Below are positions 4,518 to 41,362 of a DNA stretch of 48,764 nt, piece after piece. This DNA comes from Bacteroidota bacterium (GTDB lineage: Bacteria; Bacteroidota; Bacteroidia; AKYH767-A; 2013-40CM-41-45). Position 1 is the first letter of the stretch, and each line of letters starts with the position of its first letter. Below the pieces are notes generated by a model that was not told where the DNA came from, did not search any database, and worked only from the letters and a program-made list of their open reading frames with translations. Position numbers and translations under genes: made by a program. The stretch is taken from the NCBI GenBank assembly GCA_003151745.1, contig PLYJ01000044.1:1-48764 (forward strand), in the 5' to 3' direction.

Positions 4518-4761
4518 GAACAAGTGTTCCATTCTTAACAATTAAGCACCTCATATTTTTCACGGGCATCATGCATATTAAAAGCTTTCACCTGAAATTA
4601 TGAAACAGGTTTAGATACTTAATAAAGTAACAGCAATAACCAATATCCGGACACATCAACCCTTATCGAACGCAGCAATAACTCATTTTCTTTCAGCAAA
4701 GATTAAACATGGGACAGATGAAAATCATCCTGTTTACGCTAAACCCTTTACGAATCCTTAT
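4518..4761. other. Intergenic DNA without recognised features
   Basis: This AT-rich spacer lies between the T9SS-tail remnant and the 21-bp repeat array. I see no gene, tRNA or clear hairpin. The last 21 bases (4741-4761) may be a badly decayed first unit of the array. Confidence 0.5.
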
Positions 4762-5055
4762 AAGGAATTTACAATAATACCTGAGGAATTGTAAATTTCA
4801 TGCGTTGGGGGTATATCCCCTGATGAGGAATTTTTAATGCCTGATGAGGAATTTCAAATGTCATGCATGAAATTTGTAAAGGTTGATGAGGAACTGATGT
4901 TGTCACATAAGGAATTAATGAAATCATATCAACAATTTAAAATAGTTACAAGTAGGCTATGACGGGTATAAGAGGAATTGTTAATGTCATGCAAGGAATT
5001 TGTAAAGGATGATGAACAATTTTCATTGTCATGCATGACAGTGATAAAGCCTTAA
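4762..5055. repeat. 14 x 21-bp degenerate tandem array (locus 1)
   Basis: Fourteen consecutive units of exactly 21 bp with no indels. Most begin RAGGAATT(T/G) and many end TCATGC or TGAT. The periodicity was checked by hand at every unit boundary. Read in the plus frame each unit is a heptad such as EEFQMSC, EELMLSH or KELMKSY, but stops fall in units 2, 10 and 14. The only ATG-to-stop frame of note is 4837-4962 (41 codons). Twenty-one bp is both seven codons and two helical turns. The array sits upstream of the GT-C transferase gene and may be a decayed coding minisatellite or a protein-binding array. Confidence 0.85.
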
Positions 5056-16563: not shown

Positions 16564-16787
16564 TTTGTTTAGGTTTAAATAGTTTTATCAAAGATAAATG
16601 ATTTTAATAAACAACATGCATATATTCATTATTGCATGTATAGCATTAAGACCAATGAAGCGCCTTTCACCCTCACCCTTCACTCGTCACCTGTCACAAT
16701 ACAAAGTTTCCTCTTTTCAAAACATGCCATTTTTAATCAAAAAACACACTATTTAGTTAAACCTTCATGTAAACTACATTCATATCC

Positions 16788-17060
16788 AGTCGTATATGTT
16801 TCTATTATAGTCGGGTTTGAAACATTTTTAGTCAACTATGTTTCTTCCTTAGTCGTGTATGAATCATCCTTAGTTATGTTAGTTTCTTCATTAGTCGGGG
16901 ATGATACTTACTTAGTCATATAAGTAACCTCTTTAGTCGGGGAAGTTTCTTCTTTAGTCATATAGGTTTCTTCCTTAGTCAAATAAGTTTCATATATAGT
17001 AGGAAAAGTTTCTTCGTTAGTCGTAAAGGTTTCACTTATAGTCATAAAATTTTCATGTTT
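16788..17060. repeat. 13 x 21-bp degenerate tandem array (locus 2)
   Basis: Thirteen units, each exactly 21 bp with no indels, nearly all beginning AGTC on the plus strand and containing GTTTCTTC. I checked each boundary. Translated on the minus strand each unit is a heptad of the type KEETYMT or NEETFPT. A minus-strand frame from 17108 covers units 13 to 7 (66 codons), then stops in unit 6; unit 3 also has a stop. It lies directly upstream of FN3-like gene A (17157), divergent to that frame. It could be a small heptad-repeat protein gene, now shortened, or a DNA array with two-turn periodicity. Confidence 0.88.
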
Positions 17061-17156
17061 ATGCATATATGATTCTGTTTTTGTAAGATTTCGGGTCATT
17101 TTGTTCAAACTTGAAAAGGATTTTATGGTAAAAAGAAGAAATAAATTTGAAATTTT

Positions 17157-17822
17157 ATGAAAAAACCTATTATCGTTACAAAAACAAAGTGGTATGAGTT
17201 CGAGAAAGTTAGAAATCTTGGCTTATCAGTTTATGACAGCATGAATCTGAACAACAATTTCATTAATCCACAGCCTTCGATGGCCATTATAATGGCAAGC
17301 ACTGATGATGTTACAGAGGCTCTTGGCAAATGGGGGCCTGTTGGCAACAGAGGTTCACATCAGGATTACGTGGTTCTGCAATTAAAATCGAAAACGTTGC
17401 ACATGCGCCTCACGCAATTGGGCGCATGGTGCATGAGCAGCCTTGATGTGGGCTTGTCGTATGCTGACCAAGCTGCAATTCTTGTTACTTCAGGCTTTCC
17501 GCTCAAGAACCCGGGAGCGCATGTAGGCAAGCTGGAAATGGTTCAGGGCTTTCATCGGGTCTTTGCAGGAAATTTAAATGAATGGGATATTAAACTAAAA
17601 TGGAGCAAGCCATTAGGTGTTGCAACTATCACGAATGTTAAAAGCTATATTATTTATCGTAACACAACAAATAGTTTTTCCACTTCTTCTGTTATAGCAG
17701 CTGTTCCTAATACCACGTATATAGATGTGCCGGGCACAGGCTCGTGGTTTTATTGGGTTGTCCCGGTCAATAATATGGGCAATGGTGTTCCAAGTCAGGC
17801 AGTGATAGCCAAAATTCTATAA
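17157..17822 (+). CDS. FN3-like protein, WGxxGNRGSH family (copy A)
   Basis: A 221-residue protein of a family with four members in this window. The N-terminal half (about 1-120) is mostly helical and contains the family motif WGPVGNRGSHQDYV (about 60-73). The C-terminal half (about 130-221) looks like one fibronectin type III domain (IKLKWSKPLG, VKSYIIYRNTT, SWFYWVVPVN). No signal peptide or membrane segment is seen, which is unusual for an FN3 protein. Function is unknown. It stands outside the island, away from copies B-D, and is preceded by the second 21-bp array. Start: ATG in MKKPIIVTKTK matches the paralogues (MAKPIIAIKTR). Confidence 0.82.
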   Translation: MKKPIIVTKTKWYEFEKVRNLGLSVYDSMNLNNNFINPQPSMAIIMASTDDVTEALGKWGPVGNRGSHQDYVVLQLKSKTLHMRLTQLGAWCMSSLDVGLSYADQAAILVTSGFPLKNPGAHVGKLEMVQGFHRVFAGNLNEWDIKLKWSKPLGVATITNVKSYIIYRNTTNSFSTSSVIAAVPNTTYIDVPGTGSWFYWVVPVNNMGNGVPSQAVIAKIL

Positions 17823-30054: not shown

Positions 30055-30714
30055 TTAAGGAAGAAGAGCAACGGATGCTAAACACACATCGCTTGTAACT
30101 CCGGCACCGGAAGCGCCAACGGGAACAACCCAAAAGTAATATGTGTTAAGTGTAAGGCCGCTCTGAATGATTGAAGTTTTTGTGACTGTGGCGACTAATG
30201 CTGCGGTTGAAAAAGTTGAAACCGTATTACGATATACGTTGTATGCGTTTACAACGCCGTAGGCGGTGTCTAAGGGACGTTTCCAACGTAGTTTGACTTG
30301 ACCGTAGCTGATGGTCTTAGAAAGGAACTGACGAAGATTTTGGACAGCAGGCAGCGGTCCCGTTAAACTTTTAGGGTTCTTGATCTCCCAACCGCATGAA
30401 ACGAACGCAGTTTCGTTGTAAGGCGTTGTGATTTCACAATAGTTTGCTAACGCTGTGAGGTCAATCATTAATGTTGCACGGGCTGTGAGCAACTCGACGT
30501 GGGTTTGATGTGATCCACGGTTGCCGACAGAACCCCAGGCGGTTACTTTATTAGAGAAGGCGGTAAGATCGGTTTGAATTGTTGCAAGCGGTGGATTTGG
30601 CGTTGCATAGAAAGCGTTGCCAGTCAGGTTGGTTATCAAGGCAGTGGTAAATGATTCAAGGGCTGTATTTGACAGCCTTGCTAAGCGGAGCTTTATTGTT
30701 GGCTTATTTTGCAT
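30055..30714 (-). CDS. FN3-like protein, WGxxGNRGSH family (copy B)
   Basis: A 219-residue member of the four-copy family. The N-terminal helical part contains WGSVGNRGSHQTHVELL, and the C-terminal FN3-like part contains VKLRWKRPLD, VNAYNVYRNT and TYYFWVVPVG. A longer frame reaches 30777, but the ATG at 30712-30714 (MQNKPTIKLRLAR) aligns with the starts of the other copies and gives the same length, so I use it. It is the most diverged copy of the island, nearest the tRNA. It has no signal peptide and its function is unknown. Confidence 0.75.
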   Translation of the reverse strand: MQNKPTIKLRLARLSNTALESFTTALITNLTGNAFYATPNPPLATIQTDLTAFSNKVTAWGSVGNRGSHQTHVELLTARATLMIDLTALANYCEITTPYNETAFVSCGWEIKNPKSLTGPLPAVQNLRQFLSKTISYGQVKLRWKRPLDTAYGVVNAYNVYRNTVSTFSTAALVATVTKTSIIQSGLTLNTYYFWVVPVGASGAGVTSDVCLASVALLP

Positions 30715-31325
30715 GAATAGCGATACTATAAACCTGATAAATTTCCGAATGTGTTTCATCAGATTTTTAATGACCATAAAATTACGACAAGCTACTGAAT
30801 ATAGTTATGTCAATCGTTGCGCAATAAGAGGCATAACGGTATTTCCTAAACCATATTCACCTGAAAATAGAGAAATGATGTCTTAATCGCCAAAAAAGTA
30901 GTGTTACTTTTTATCAATGTCAGCTAACAAAGCAAAAAAGTAAGACTACTTTTTATTGATGTGAGTTGTGTTTGAATTTAGTTGAGATTTTATCGGAACG
31001 AAGTGAGATTAAATCGAAACAAGGTTGTTTATGTTCCTTGCCGGGTAACATATTGTCGAATCAAATTAAGTCAACCGCAAAACAAGGCAACATATAGCGA
31101 AAGCAGATACAGACATTCTTAATCCAATAACAGATTTCCTTTTTGCCTCTTTGGTTATAAGGGGTGGGCGGGCGGGGAAGGCAAGGCAAGGGTGGCGACT
31201 GAAGGCAGGAAAAAAATTGGTTGGGTGGAATGAAGCACTGTTAATTTGCTTTCATACGTTGGCAATGAGGGATGGCGAAAGCAAATTGCAGGGCGAAATG
31301 GAACGAAGCGTAGGAATTTTTTTGC

Positions 31326-32699: not shown

Positions 32700-33386
32700 T
32701 TACATGCTTGGAACGGTTACCGTTACAGCGTTAGATAATACTCCTTCACCATTGGTGTTTAAAGGAACAATCCAATATGACCATGTTACGGAAGCACTTG
32801 TGCTATTGGTATCAATGAAGGATGATTTTGTAGTTGTTGCTATCTGCTTAGCAGCAGAGAAAACGACTGTTGTTCCTCTATATATGTTGTAAGATTTAAC
32901 GTTACCGGCTGTTGCAGTGTTAAGCGGTTTTTTCCATTTTATCTTAACCTGGTTGCCGTTGAGCTTGCGCGAAACGAAGTTGTGAAAGCTCTGCACCATT
33001 TGAAGAACGCCTTGCGGATTCTTTGGATTTGAAAACTGATAACCGCTTGTTACGATTATTGCACCCATTGCATTATAATCGCTACCTGCTGCTGTCTGTA
33101 CGGTGTTCTGCACATATTGAGCAAGTGATTTCAGCATTTGCGAAAGCGTTAGCGCCTTTTGGCGAAGATCAACAAGCGAAGCATGGGAGCCACGATTTCC
33201 TTTAGAACCCCAAACAGCAATGGCGGTTTCAACGTCTGTAACAGCGGATTGAAGCGAAAGCAATGTTGGTGATGGGGTTGTGAAATTTGCGTTGCCAGTC
33301 ATGCTAACTACAATACGATTGGCAAGATTGACAAGCCCTGCGTAGGCAGTTGTTCTGAGTTTGATTGCAATGATAGGTTTTGCCAT
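32700..33386 (-). CDS. FN3-like protein, WGxxGNRGSH family (copy C)
   Basis: A 228-residue protein, the downstream member of a tandem pair with copy D. By hand count about 78% of residues are identical over the full equal length, so the pair is a fairly recent duplication. Helical N-terminal half with VWGSKGNRGSHASLVDL (about 58-74). FN3-like C-terminal half with VKIKWKKPLN, VKSYNIYRGTT and WSYWIVPLN, ending VTVTVPSM. No signal peptide, function unknown. An intrinsic terminator lies immediately upstream (end of gene D), and I see no TAnnTTTG element in the gap, so expression of C may need read-through. Confidence 0.85.
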   Translation of the reverse strand: MAKPIIAIKLRTTAYAGLVNLANRIVVSMTGNANFTTPSPTLLSLQSAVTDVETAIAVWGSKGNRGSHASLVDLRQKALTLSQMLKSLAQYVQNTVQTAAGSDYNAMGAIIVTSGYQFSNPKNPQGVLQMVQSFHNFVSRKLNGNQVKIKWKKPLNTATAGNVKSYNIYRGTTVVFSAAKQIATTTKSSFIDTNSTSASVTWSYWIVPLNTNGEGVLSNAVTVTVPSM

Positions 33387-33469: not shown

Positions 33470-34156
33470 TTACATGCTTGGAACGGTAACCGTTACTGCG
33501 TTGGATACTACTCCTACACCGTTGGTGTTGACGGGAGCAATCCAATATGACCATGATACGGAAGCACTTGTGCTGTTCGTATCAATGAAAGATGTTTTGG
33601 TAGTAGATGCTAACTGCACGGCAGCAGAGAATACAGAAGTTGTTCCCCTGTAAACATTGTAGGATTTAACGTTACCGGCTGATGCAGTGTTAAGTGGCTT
33701 TTTCCATTTCATCTTCACCTGGTTGGCGTTGAGCTTACGCGAAACGAAGTTGTGAAAGCCCTGCACCATCTGAAGAGTGCCTTGCGGATTCTTTGGATTT
33801 GAAAGTTGAAAACCACTTGTAGTGATAACTGCTGCCATCAATGCGTAATCACTTCCGGCTGCTGTTTGGGCGGTGTTCTGCACATACTGAGCAAGTGATT
33901 TAATGGTTTGAGAAAGTGTAAGTGCCTTTGTCTTTAAATCAACAAGGGAAGCGTGAGAACCACGATTGCCTCTTGGCCCCCAAACTGCAATTGCATTAAC
34001 CACATCAGTTATTGCTGTTTGAAGTACGGCAAGTGCCGGTGCCGGGGTTGCGTAACTTAAATTTCCTGTTAAACTTGCAACAACGCGATTGCCAAGATTG
34101 ACAAGTGCTGCGTAAGCAGTAACGCGGGTTTTGATTGCTATAATTGGCTTTGCCAT
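33470..34156 (-). CDS. FN3-like protein, WGxxGNRGSH family (copy D)
   Basis: A 228-residue tandem partner of copy C. Family motif VWGPRGNRGSHASLVDL, followed by a helix rich in Thr/Gln/Leu (ALTLSQTIKSLAQYVQNT). The FN3-like C-terminal domain has VKMKWKKPLN, VKSYNVYRGTT and WSYWIAPVN. The strictly shared features of all four copies are the GNRGSH motif, a SGxxxxNPK/NPG turn in the middle, and the W-x-KPL and YWxxPVN/LN strands of the FN3 part. No secretion signal. A TACATTTG promoter element lies 31 bp upstream on its strand. Confidence 0.85.
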   Translation of the reverse strand: MAKPIIAIKTRVTAYAALVNLGNRVVASLTGNLSYATPAPALAVLQTAITDVVNAIAVWGPRGNRGSHASLVDLKTKALTLSQTIKSLAQYVQNTAQTAAGSDYALMAAVITTSGFQLSNPKNPQGTLQMVQGFHNFVSRKLNANQVKMKWKKPLNTASAGNVKSYNVYRGTTSVFSAAVQLASTTKTSFIDTNSTSASVSWSYWIAPVNTNGVGVVSNAVTVTVPSM

Positions 34157-34195: not shown

Positions 34196-35160
34196 TGGCA
34201 GTAAATTCTTTTGGATGTCATGAATAAAGATGCAGGAGGAAGCGAAGGGAAGCACATTTTTAGCATGGAAGCAAATTCGTATCATTTTTCAAAAACTATG
34301 CCCTTACACTACTCTTAATTTAAAGCAAGGTACTATCAAGCCGGGAAGTGGGGTGAGCACAAAAGCGAAACCGAACGGCTGTCCAGCGAAGCGAGGCGAC
34401 TGTTTAGGGAGACGTAGCGAAAGCGGGTTATTACGAGCAGCCCGCCGCGTGAGGGGCGAAGGCTCAGACGCTGAACGGCAGAGAAGCGTTTGAGCCTGAG
34501 ACGCACCCCGAATGCACAGCGTAACGACTGAGGGAGTGACCCTGTTGGCTTGAGCGTTGGCGGAACGGTGGAAGAAGTGAAGCGAGGAGCGGCGGGTTGC
34601 GGAACACTATATATTCAATGCTATAATCTTTCAGCCACACCCCTGCCCTCTCCGAAGGAGAGGGATAATGGCTGTTTTTGTGCATGACTGAACTGAGTGG
34701 AGTTGTAACGTAGCCGAAGTCGGACGAAGTCCGACGAAGGCGAAGAGAAAACGGAACGAAGGAAGTGATGCACGGCTGTTTGAGCGAAGTTCGCGTAGTG
34801 TAGCCGGAGTCGGACGAAGTCTGACGGAGGCGAAACGAGCGGACTGAGCGAATGTATTTGGCTGTTGCAAGGTTGCTGCATACCGCAAGGAATGAAGGTA
34901 GCGTAACGTAGGCGTAGCTTGCTACGCCGAAGTAAGCGGACGTAATGACTGAGGATATGTAGCTACCGTATTTGTTTTGAGCAAACAGGGCATGACGGGC
35001 AAAGTCTGTCATGCTTTGTTTGCGATTGCATTAGGGATTGTAACGGAAATCCTTTTCTGTTTACAGAAAAGATTGTAGAGGAAAGCCCGACTTGGAAGGG
35101 AATGCCCAAATGGTTTTATACACAGGTAGGGGTTTAAAAAAAGGGTGCAAAGGTACTGCT
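34196..35160. other. Purine-rich gene-free structured DNA (block 2)
   Basis: About 1 kb without a credible gene. The plus strand is rich in GCGAAG, GGCGA and GAACGG words. Strong hairpins: GGCTCAGACGC/GCGTTTGAGCC (34461-34496, one mismatch), CCCTCTCC/GGAGAGGG (34646-34664) and GGCGTAGC/GCTACGCC (34911-34928, 2-nt loop). The density of perfect stems is well above that of the flanking genes. Confidence 0.6.
34710..34834 (+). repeat. Two 35-bp hairpin-bearing direct repeats
   Basis: Bases 34710-34744 and 34800-34834 match at 31 of 35 positions, spaced 90 bp. Each contains TCGGAC-GAA-GTCCGA or the variant TCGGAC-GAA-GTCTGA. The single change in the second arm keeps a G-U pair, so the stem is preserved at RNA level. 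Confidence 0.75.
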
Positions 35161-38220: not shown

Positions 38221-38708
38221 TTAGTTTCTTCCAACATTTTTTCTTTAGAAAACAATGTTGTGATTGGTTTTTGAATTGAGTAAAGCAACATTTCTAACTG
38301 ACCGCCGGGACTGGCATAACCAACGGTTATGCTGTCTGCTATTTCAAGCATCATCTTGTTTCTTGTTGCTGCTGTTTCTTCTGTTACTCTTTTTATTTTT
38401 TTCTCAAAGGGGGTTACGATTAGTAACCTCCCCTGCTCTATTGGGAGTTGAAACTCGGTTTCAACTTTTTCTTTTAGACCTCTTGCAAGGGCAACGATGA
38501 TGGGTTGCTTGCCTTTTAGAAGGTAATGCAAAACATCTTTTTCTAATTGAGAATGAAACCCACTAATGATGCAGTTGCCTTGCTCCCTCTGCTCTATTGC
38601 CCAATCATAGCATTTAAGGACTACCGATGCAGGCGTTTTGCGACTGCATAAGAAAGCTGTTTTGTGCAGCTTCAATATTTCAGTATTACCATGAGTTGCT
38701 TTTATCAT
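38217..38708 (-). CDS. DprA/SLOG-like nucleotide-binding protein
   Basis: A 163-residue single Rossmann-like domain. FLCSRKTPASVVLKCYDWA, CIISGFHSQLEKDVLHYLLKGKQPIIVALARGL and the late ATRNKMMLEIADSITVGYASPGGQL follow the DprA order of motifs (SRxxS, SGxxxxxD-like, RN, SGG-like). DprA's C-terminal winged helix is absent, so this is not the transformation protein itself. SLOG-fold proteins bind nucleotides or ssDNA and several act as sensors in defence systems. It overlaps the methylase stop by 4 bp (ATGA). Confidence 0.7.
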   Translation of the reverse strand: MIKATHGNTEILKLHKTAFLCSRKTPASVVLKCYDWAIEQREQGNCIISGFHSQLEKDVLHYLLKGKQPIIVALARGLKEKVETEFQLPIEQGRLLIVTPFEKKIKRVTEETAATRNKMMLEIADSITVGYASPGGQLEMLLYSIQKPITTLFSKEKMLEETK

Positions 38709-41362
38709 TCATCATTTGAGCTTTCAAGTTCTTTGCTCATTCTGTATTTATAATCATAATTAATTAAAAAATCTATCTCTTCATCATTAAAGCCGTAGTG
38801 CTCAGATAAGACTTTATCAATCTCATCCATTGTATTTTTCGACTGAGATTTATTATATGTTATCGTTTCATTGCTACCTCTGGTTTTGCTGTTTATGGTA
38901 TATGAAGTTGCATTTTTCAAAAGTTCTTTCTCCAATTTGTCAGAAAGTTTAACCAATTTTTGTTCAATAGCTTTATCATTAGGATAGTTAGACTTGAATC
39001 CAAAAATCATATAATCTTTAAAATTAAATTGGTCAAAGTTTATCGAATAATACCACCAAAATAAATTTGAATTAAGGACTGCTGAAAAAACTTTTGAATT
39101 ATATTCCTTCTGAAACGAAGCTGCTTTATTACTTAGAGATTCTGTATCGAAATCTTCATTCAAAATTGTAACCCAATAACCACCACCAGCAGTACGATAA
39201 AATATTTTATTATTTGCAGCATTGCTATTACTTAGAAAGTTCCTAATCTCTTTGTGCTTTAAATATTTATTTAGAATTGATGTTTCTATAACAGAACCAA
39301 TTTTCAGTAATTGTTTTTGATTTGATTGGTCGGCAGCAACATAAGATAGGTTAGTAAAAAGAAGATTTCTCGTTTCAGATTTCCATCTATAAACAATTGT
39401 GGAATACATTCCTTTGATTGCACTCTGCTTGTAAACTATAAATATTGAAAGACGCTGTAAAACTCCTTCAAACAATGCGGCTGGTCTTTGGTGATAATTG
39501 GAAACATACGAAAGAGGAAACCTTTTAAATAACGTTTGAACAGTTTCCATACTTGCATTGGAAAAGGCACTAATAGGAATAATCATTCCCATTAATCCAT
39601 TTTTGTTTAAAATATTATTGCTTCTTTCAATTACAAATCCGTAAAGATTTGCGCACTTCTCGGTTTCATAATTCTTTATCCTATAATCATCACGAACTTT
39701 TGAGTATTCAACATACGGAGGGTTGCCAATGATAATATCAAAACCATTATTATCGTGCATTATTTCATAGAACTCGGCAAACCAATGGAAGGGCTTGTAT
39801 TTATCAAGCCATTTATCATATTTTAATCCATCTGCTTGCTTATATAAAAGCATGTTCAGTTCGCGGTTTAATTCCCTCAATCGTTCCTCCAAAGTTAATT
39901 TGTCGCGCTTAACCGTTTTGTAATCTCTTACTGTTACTTGGCTATTTTTAAAGTTTCTGTAAGCCATTGAAACAATTTCCATTTTTTCAGTAATGGCCGG
40001 TTTTGCAAGTTGTCCATCAAGAGTATAATTCAATGCCTTGTCCAACTCAGAATCTGTACCAAAGCCAATTAATGTATTTCCTGAACGAATATTGAAATCA
40101 ATATCCGGTAGCGGTTCTAATCCTAAGTTTGGTTTCCGATAATCAACCTCAACAGTTGCCACTAATTTAAGGAACAAGCGCAGCTTGGCGATTTCAACCG
40201 CTTCTTTCATTATGTCCACTCCATAAAGGTTGCGGAGGATAATGTTTTTGTAAATGAAGTAACTCAGGTTGGGATGTTCAGGGGCTGTAACCTGTGCAAT
40301 GGTTTCTTCAAAGAATTTGTATCTTCCTTTAGGGGCATCATTGACAAAGTTTTGCATACGTTGTATGCACTGCTCATACAGTTCTTCCAAAATATTCATT
40401 GCAGCAAAGAGGAAAGCTCCTGAACCGCAAGTGGGGTCAATGATGCTAACGCTGTTTAGTGCCTTGTAAAATGATTTCAGAAACTCAGGGTCATTGGTAT
40501 TGGCTAAGCAGTCAATGGCAAACTGACGGACGTTGAGATTGTATGTGATGAAATCATTGATGTTTTGTATTTCACCCTTTTCAATCTTGCTTTTTATTAC
40601 GCTGTATCGGGTACGGCGGTCAATTACTTCCCTCCATATTTCAGTAGGCAAGGCAAATTGTTCCTGAGCTTGCTTATTCCATTCTGTTCTTGCACTGACG
40701 TTTTTAATTCCGGCTGCAATTTCATCAGGCAATTTTTCATCCACTCCTTTTTTAACCGCATCGTAGATGTAGTTATTGTTGCTTTGCTTCACCATTTGCC
40801 ATAACTCGGCATCAGGTAAAAATGCTTTAGCATTTTGCCGTTTAGTTTCTTCAAACAAGAAAGGAAGAATGCAATTCTTACTGATGTAATCGGTTATATC
40901 TTCTTTGGTGTAGTATGCACCCATGTCAGCCCTGTCATTGATGTATTTCTCAAAGATGTAACCGATAACATCAGGGTTGATGTCTTTCCCTGTAGCGGTA
41001 ATGCGCGTGTCAAGATGCCATTCGTACTGGTCGAAAAAATCGAAAATCCTTTCAGCTAACCTCTTTTTTAGTTTTACTGCTTCGGCTGTGTCAATGATGT
41101 GTTCTCCATCTTCGCGGAAATGTTCACGCAAAATATCAATGCCCGTTTTCTGCATACCGACAAGCAATCGGCAAATGCGGTGAACATCATCGTTGCCTTC
41201 TGTAACTGTCGTACCCTGCAAGCTGTCAATTTTTGCAGCTACTTCCTTCCATCCTCTCAGGTTGAAATAGCCAACGCAAAAGTCTGTGCGGTGGGATAAC
41301 TCTAAGGTTTCATTTAAACCTTTTGTGAGTTGGTGTTCTATATTGTCGTAAATTTTCGGCAT
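38705..41362 (-). CDS. N6-adenine DNA methylase, Eco57I-type, with chimeric N-terminus
   Basis: An 885-residue methylase. S-adenosylmethionine-binding motif I is DPTCGSGAF (309-317) and catalytic motif IV is NPPY (547-550). The segment MGAYYTKEDITDYI (147-160) is typical of Eco57I/PglX-like enzymes. The C-terminal third (about 560-885) should be the target recognition region. Residues 1-73 (MPKIYDNIEHQLTKGLNETL, then FCVGYFNLRGWK and CRLLVGMQKTG) do not belong to this family. They match the start of PLD-domain DEAD/DEAH helicases from similar loci, from memory. No nuclease motif is seen in the chain. First gene of the operon. Confidence 0.82.
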   Translation of the reverse strand: MPKIYDNIEHQLTKGLNETLELSHRTDFCVGYFNLRGWKEVAAKIDSLQGTTVTEGNDDVHRICRLLVGMQKTGIDILREHFREDGEHIIDTAEAVKLKKRLAERIFDFFDQYEWHLDTRITATGKDINPDVIGYIFEKYINDRADMGAYYTKEDITDYISKNCILPFLFEETKRQNAKAFLPDAELWQMVKQSNNNYIYDAVKKGVDEKLPDEIAAGIKNVSARTEWNKQAQEQFALPTEIWREVIDRRTRYSVIKSKIEKGEIQNINDFITYNLNVRQFAIDCLANTNDPEFLKSFYKALNSVSIIDPTCGSGAFLFAAMNILEELYEQCIQRMQNFVNDAPKGRYKFFEETIAQVTAPEHPNLSYFIYKNIILRNLYGVDIMKEAVEIAKLRLFLKLVATVEVDYRKPNLGLEPLPDIDFNIRSGNTLIGFGTDSELDKALNYTLDGQLAKPAITEKMEIVSMAYRNFKNSQVTVRDYKTVKRDKLTLEERLRELNRELNMLLYKQADGLKYDKWLDKYKPFHWFAEFYEIMHDNNGFDIIIGNPPYVEYSKVRDDYRIKNYETEKCANLYGFVIERSNNILNKNGLMGMIIPISAFSNASMETVQTLFKRFPLSYVSNYHQRPAALFEGVLQRLSIFIVYKQSAIKGMYSTIVYRWKSETRNLLFTNLSYVAADQSNQKQLLKIGSVIETSILNKYLKHKEIRNFLSNSNAANNKIFYRTAGGGYWVTILNEDFDTESLSNKAASFQKEYNSKVFSAVLNSNLFWWYYSINFDQFNFKDYMIFGFKSNYPNDKAIEQKLVKLSDKLEKELLKNATSYTINSKTRGSNETITYNKSQSKNTMDEIDKVLSEHYGFNDEEIDFLINYDYKYRMSKELESSNDE

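Follow-up and report, generated by a model that had tools for sequence, protein, structure and literature searches.

The window, the whole stretch of 48,764 nucleotides of Bacteroidota DNA analysed here, contains three arrays of 21-bp tandem repeats, all of them intergenic, together with the FN3-like gene A and its paralogues (Table 1). Array 1 has a homologous copy elsewhere in its own genome (locus L193), and a gap of 85 bp separates the weak array 3 from the minus-strand FN3-like gene that it precedes. Between array 2 and gene A stands TAAATTTG, which we take to fit the Bacteroidetes -7 box TAnnTTTG. Elsewhere in the window, a Flavo-1 sRNA was detected at 35026-35096 (Rfam RF01705, 58 bits), and a large methyltransferase-like gene, named by eye, occupies 38705-41362, a few kb away.

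Table 1. The 21-bp arrays of the window and the features that accompany them
Feature	Position	Strand	Remarks
21-bp array 1	about 4761-5034		unit RAGGAATTnnnAATGnCATGC-like
21-bp array 2	16774..17088		13 clear units (16788-17060), or 15 once degenerate edge units are counted
66-aa open frame within array 2	16908..17108	-	judged no gene
TAAATTTG	17142..17149	+	between array 2 and gene A
FN3-like gene A	17157..17822	+	221 aa; starts 69 bp after array 2
FN3-like paralogue	30055..30777	-	weak array 3 upstream
Weak third 21-bp array	30862..31113		score 0.505, above all 60 shuffles
FN3-like paralogue	32700..33386	-	no array called upstream
FN3-like paralogue	33470..34156	-	no array called upstream

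Array 2 has the minus-strand consensus unit GACTAAnnAAGAAACnTAnnn. An earlier note on this DNA had described it as thirteen units of exactly 21 bp with the purine-rich strand on the minus side, and both statements hold: the array stands above all 60 shuffles, and its plus strand is 42.5% purine, which makes the minus strand the purine-rich one. Over the whole window, the lag-21 score reaches a maximum of 0.698, compared with at most 0.444 in 60 dinucleotide shuffles, and the neighbouring lags 20 and 22 give 0.394 and 0.463. Within array 2, lags 42 (0.73) and 63 (0.71) exceed lag 21 (0.65) because the units alternate with a 42-bp step.

We scanned for tandem periods at lags 8-130 and found that arrays of this period are a common feature of the genome. 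An unbiased sample of 274 kb (20 stretches and the window) held 16 arrays with period 21, 42 or 63 and almost none else that were comparably strong; other periods were at chance level or reflected long protein repeats. Over 1.0 Mb of the same genome there were 57 arrays of period 21, 42 or 63 against about 23 of other periods, and removing one coding 21-bp repeat (L049:10896) left 56 intergenic arrays. Since the second and third samples of this genome and four stretches of a relative were partly picked for array or FN3 hits, we give densities for the unbiased part alone, and one stretch reading as N was excluded from gene and density counts. At a stricter threshold the unbiased part contains about one array per 20 kb, which would extrapolate to roughly 230 arrays in the 4.6-Mb genome. 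The relative Umea1_bin-0439 (G031) has 40 arrays in 245 kb against 4 of other periods; its stretches not picked for FN3 or LpxA hits (n=16) hold 24 in 153 kb, so that a genome of this kind may carry about 600. Two further genomes, G032 and G033, have 12 arrays in 52.7 kb and 7 in 60 kb, respectively.

The spread among genomes is uneven. Ten genomes of the same family (341 kb sampled) yielded no array of the 21-bp type and one 14/21/28-bp call, and none of the 21-bp type was called in samples of G034, G035, G037, G040, G046, G051, G052 and G054. A set of 80 named LpxA loci (1.39 Mb) showed clear intergenic arrays of 21 bp in L106 and, once, in L122. In other Bacteroidota, arrays with a period of 14 or 16 are present but rarer, and some of them show multiples of 7 (L257, L258 (G034), L101, L164, L168, L263 and L269).

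Arrays comprise about 7-23 head-to-tail units; they occupy long gaps between genes, and promoters often follow them. Only 2 of 42 arrays of the window's genome, and none of 26 in the relative, overlap predicted genes, and 8-14% of the sampled non-coding bases belong to called arrays. Many lie at contig ends (L029, L030, L035, L041, L044, L055, L058, L060 and L063), which indicates that assemblies break there and that array lengths may be underestimated.

What the arrays share is their period rather than their letters. The best ungapped pairing of arrays 1 and 2 scores z 3.0, close to the median of 2.6 for all array pairs, and a sequence family common to the two was rejected on that ground. At a pair threshold of z >= 10, the 56 arrays of the window's genome fall into 41 groups and 40 arrays of the relative into 35, with no cross-genome pair reaching this threshold in the comparison of the 56 with the 40. 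The proposal in the earlier note that two arrays of one period betray a genome-wide family thus survives for a class of elements (56 arrays in 1.0 Mb), and the absence of other such arrays, which it had named as a refutation, was not what the scan of this genome found; it fails for a family of sequences, and with it goes the RAGGAA-like unit start thought to be common to the arrays. Each array appears homogenised on its own, often to near identity in the relative. These patterns suggest that it is the 21-bp spacing, rather than the letters, that matters.

Dyad symmetry is frequent among the units: 29 of 38 arrays have dyad-symmetric units at p < 0.05, and at z >= 2 the count is 12 of 19, with 22 of 40 in the relative. 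Half-unit repeats of 10/11 bp were not found (mean z -0.06), and harmonic analysis of base classes gave no 10.5-bp signal. Several arrays end with their own unit in inverted orientation, so that the array ends are palindromic (L106:5928, L215:6187, L220:3424, L228:205 and L049:12081).

One pair of homologous arrays, L029:19035-19307 and L063:19387-19680, shows how units change together. Their variable words come in the same order, and when units of equal index are compared, most middle columns agree to 76-100%. At the unit boundary, columns 0 and 20 agree in only 0% and 7% of the 13 units, yet each is nearly fixed or well conserved inside its own array. Plain gene conversion fits this poorly, as it would homogenise the entire unit; palindrome-guided conversion and array-specific recognition are candidates for such concerted rewriting. 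In one dispersed family, a sigma-70-family gene (190 aa, Pfam regions 2 and 4) lies about 40 bp before the arrays (L012:754-1326, L013:877-1449 and L024), as if gene and array had moved together.

A 21-bp unit has the length of seven codons, and the earlier note had proposed a protein of heptads such as KEETYMT on the minus strand of array 2. Its frame is as described, open from a TTG at 17108 to a stop ending at 16908 and broken again beyond. Open frames are also slightly in excess overall, in 33 of 56 arrays of the window's genome (29 expected) and 35 of 39 in the relative (30 expected). The heptad protein itself does not stand: substitutions between homologous arrays have no codon-position pattern, the window frame is broken, and coding repeats would be expected to use periods of 18, 24 or 27 bp too. 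We therefore consider it highly improbable that the arrays encode heptad-repeat peptides. The repeat at L049:10595-11338, which is protein-coding with DSGH-type heptads, provides a contrast to the non-coding arrays.

The arrays could also act as RNA, forming hairpins or self-complementary structures once transcribed and so influencing termination or the stability of mRNA. On both strands, 30 arrays fold better than column-permuted copies (mean z -3.8 and -3.6), as the dyads predict. Compensatory changes within units gave no signal (mean z -0.11 over 58 tests), and unit hairpins or cruciforms kept by compensation were rejected on this result. Moreover, 19 of 40 arrays lie in divergent gaps, arrays precede promoter-like boxes, and the Rfam search had no match at the arrays of the window. 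On this evidence an RNA role is unlikely.

Whether the arrays keep their phase was tested on homologous copies. Of 27 pairs, which are not independent, 22 were without any gap inside the array, while most flanks had several; the other five had 2, 13, 4, 2 and 2 gaps, some of them compensating or in arrays with ambiguous alignment. Old arrays, at 19-37% divergence, are likewise mostly without small indels, and their flanks have many. As the arrays had originally been called by their period, the indel test was repeated on copies found by their terminal repeat, using six independent copies of one MITE family after removal of the reference copy and two duplicate loci. The array region contained indels of 105, 42 and 1 bp, whereas 18 small ones fell in the flanks, with substitutions at 208/1748 positions (11.9%) in the array and 183/1205 (15.2%) in the flanks. 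The deficit of small indels inside the array is significant (Fisher p = 2.1e-5), and it follows that arrays change by whole units and otherwise hold their phase.

Twenty-one bases make two whole turns of B-DNA (2 x 10.5), and no smaller whole number of bases gives whole turns. Every unit of an array therefore presents the same face of the helix, and the arrays have two features of a helically phased DNA element, a period of whole turns and a phase kept against indels. Selection for one face fits this length better than coding, which would allow any multiple of three, or slippage, which would allow any length. Our preferred reading, to which we give a probability of about 0.45, is that the arrays are cis-acting, non-coding elements that work as double-stranded DNA, with every unit kept on one face of the helix. 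Selection would preserve the phase because the units act together, as a row of sites for a dimeric or architectural protein, as a segment bending in one direction, or as both, and this could shape access to promoters or the local structure of the chromosome. New arrays would lengthen and shorten by whole units, some of them spreading as MITE-like elements. The dyads speak for protein binding on one face; since the units of different arrays are wholly different, a single sequence-specific protein cannot bind them all.

Bending was predicted with a wedge model. Predicted bend is higher in arrays than in array-free intergenic DNA (79 versus 49 and 95 versus 60), is lost when units are made 20 bp long, and exceeds the 95th percentile of intergenic DNA in about 20% of arrays. 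Column-permuted arrays have predicted bends of 71 and 81, nearly those of the real arrays, so unit sequences would appear barely tuned for bending, and the model leaves bending alone unproven as the function. Two further observations count against the phased-element reading: related genomes do not clearly keep their arrays in corresponding places (around trxB, arrays are not in the same gap, argS and recA give an ambiguous picture, and G033 had no trxB or recA match), and array 2 itself is without dyad symmetry (z -0.5).

The strongest competitor is a mutational ruler without function, in which an enzyme or replication process of the clade duplicates DNA in 21-bp steps and leaves neutral minisatellites in intergenic space. 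Units that are locus-specific, and near-identical in many arrays of the relative, look like amplified local templates; the deletions of 42 and 105 bp are of whole units; and arrays are common wherever gaps are long, with 15 of 20 gaps of at least 700 bp in the relative containing one. Set against this are the old arrays described above, still mostly free of small indels next to flanks that have many, and the dyad symmetry, which a plain ruler does not lead one to expect. We regard the ruler as possible but doubtful.

Some arrays probably travel with mobile elements, and in another rival account all of them are passengers of a transposon family, as MITE-borne minisatellites resembling BrickBuilt. 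Family C copies have in common the terminal inverted repeat ACCTCTTTCATAATTC and sit in unrelated flanks, and family C alone shows this combination clearly. The terminal-repeat pattern has 54 matches in the window's genome. The same ends bound both array-bearing elements and short MITE-like ones that carry no array, and several elements adjoin further 21-bp arrays (loci L234, L235, L239 and L240). Inverted repeats in the flanks score at least 12 for 15 of 82 arrays, against 11 of 82 for which a shuffle scored that high, and the best one around array 2 scores 9.0 against a null mean of 10.0. A MITE origin for all arrays was rejected on the flank scores of the 82 and kept for family C; as a general account, transposon passengers seem to us about as unlikely as the RNA role, or slightly more so.

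The earlier note placed array 2 next to gene A and proposed comparing array positions with those of FN3-like genes. The protein of gene A has a helical N-terminal part and an FN3-like C-terminal domain; its family profile matches titin FN3 (E 1.4e-9), and Pfam fn3 matches one of ten members, with a best E of 8e-4. The structure model has a pLDDT of 57, and Foldseek returned matches at E >= 2e-3 and none at E <= 0.001. Given the poor structure prediction and the lack of a fold match at that threshold, the FN3-like protein was dropped as a candidate array-binding partner. With the window protein as query, this family of about 220 aa has 55 matches in its own genome and none in 30 relatives; a profile search of 28 genomes found members in G031 (4), G032 (3) and G033 (3) and a weak partial match in G048. 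Among the sampled genomes, FN3-like genes are thus almost confined to those that bear arrays. This phyletic match is real in the sample, and the array-bearing genomes may be one clade.

At the level of single loci the association divides. In the window's genome, a clear array lies upstream of 5 of the best 20 of the 55 FN3-like loci and downstream of none; a share of 25% is just what long upstream gaps predict. In G031-G033, arrays end 107-240 bp upstream of all 9 assessable FN3-like genes, the tenth being at a contig end, compared with 57% (28 of 49; p = 0.006) of relative genes whose upstream gap is long. Boxes resembling TAAATTTG by eye are present in 6 of these 9 loci. Long upstream gaps explain most of the link, and we consider it suggestive only.

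Returning to double-stranded DNA phased on one face, we tentatively propose, with less assurance than for the reading itself, that the arrays form a clade-wide satellitome. Each genome would have several hundred intergenic arrays, each with its own arbitrary and often palindromic unit, selected for exactly two turns per unit, so that geometry would be the information; the concerted rewriting of unit cores in at least one pair would point to array-specific recognition or palindrome-guided conversion. If this is true, intergenic DNA of these bacteria is under helical-phase selection without sequence conservation, and a class of elements exists that is invisible to homology searches. It would also offer a directly testable case in which DNA geometry, not motifs, matters in a bacterial chromosome, and one in which short tandem arrays of bacteria evolve in concert.

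Several known systems share some of these features. CRISPR arrays were set aside because the units here are head-to-tail without spacers. In iteron arrays and phased operators of plasmid replication and partition, too, tandem sites of about 21 bp share one face of the helix, but a replicon normally has only one or a few of them, close to a cognate gene; here, no common neighbouring gene was seen beyond the sigma-70 and FN3-like families described above. In the open-access full-text literature that we searched, we found no account of arrays locked to 21 bp. Nor do the descriptions of BrickBuilt, the TAACTGA repeats and REPs that we consulted speak of unrelated arrays in the hundreds that all keep to a single period.

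BrickBuilt of Porphyromonas gingivalis is a MITE/minisatellite with one 23-nt unit and 19 copies of one element (PMC4596501). It resembles our arrays in coming from Bacteroidota, in being exclusively intergenic and in its dispersed copies of spacer-less, head-to-tail units of about 20 bp, and it resembles family C in its terminal inverted repeats. It differs in that we see hundreds of arrays with dozens of unrelated sequences that have only the 21-bp step in common, no single 23-nt unit, and, for most arrays including array 2, no terminal repeats. The TAACTGA heptamer direct repeats of Beggiatoaceae, Cyanobacteria and some Bacteroidetes are abundant intergenic tandem repeats often found before start codons (PMC4679880), and 21 is three heptamers. 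Theirs is one fixed 7-bp unit, whereas our arrays have neither a common unit nor a 14-bp sub-period: in the listed 21-type arrays, at lags 8-130 only, multiples of 21 and their neighbours pass, and 14, 28 and 35 do not. REP/BIME elements are dispersed palindromes of 20-40 bp in one or few families, with GTAG/CGTC tags and mostly downstream of genes (PMC3733652). Like many of the arrays they are extragenic and palindromic and number hundreds per genome; the arrays described here stand apart from them in being spacer-less, phased and built from units specific to each locus.
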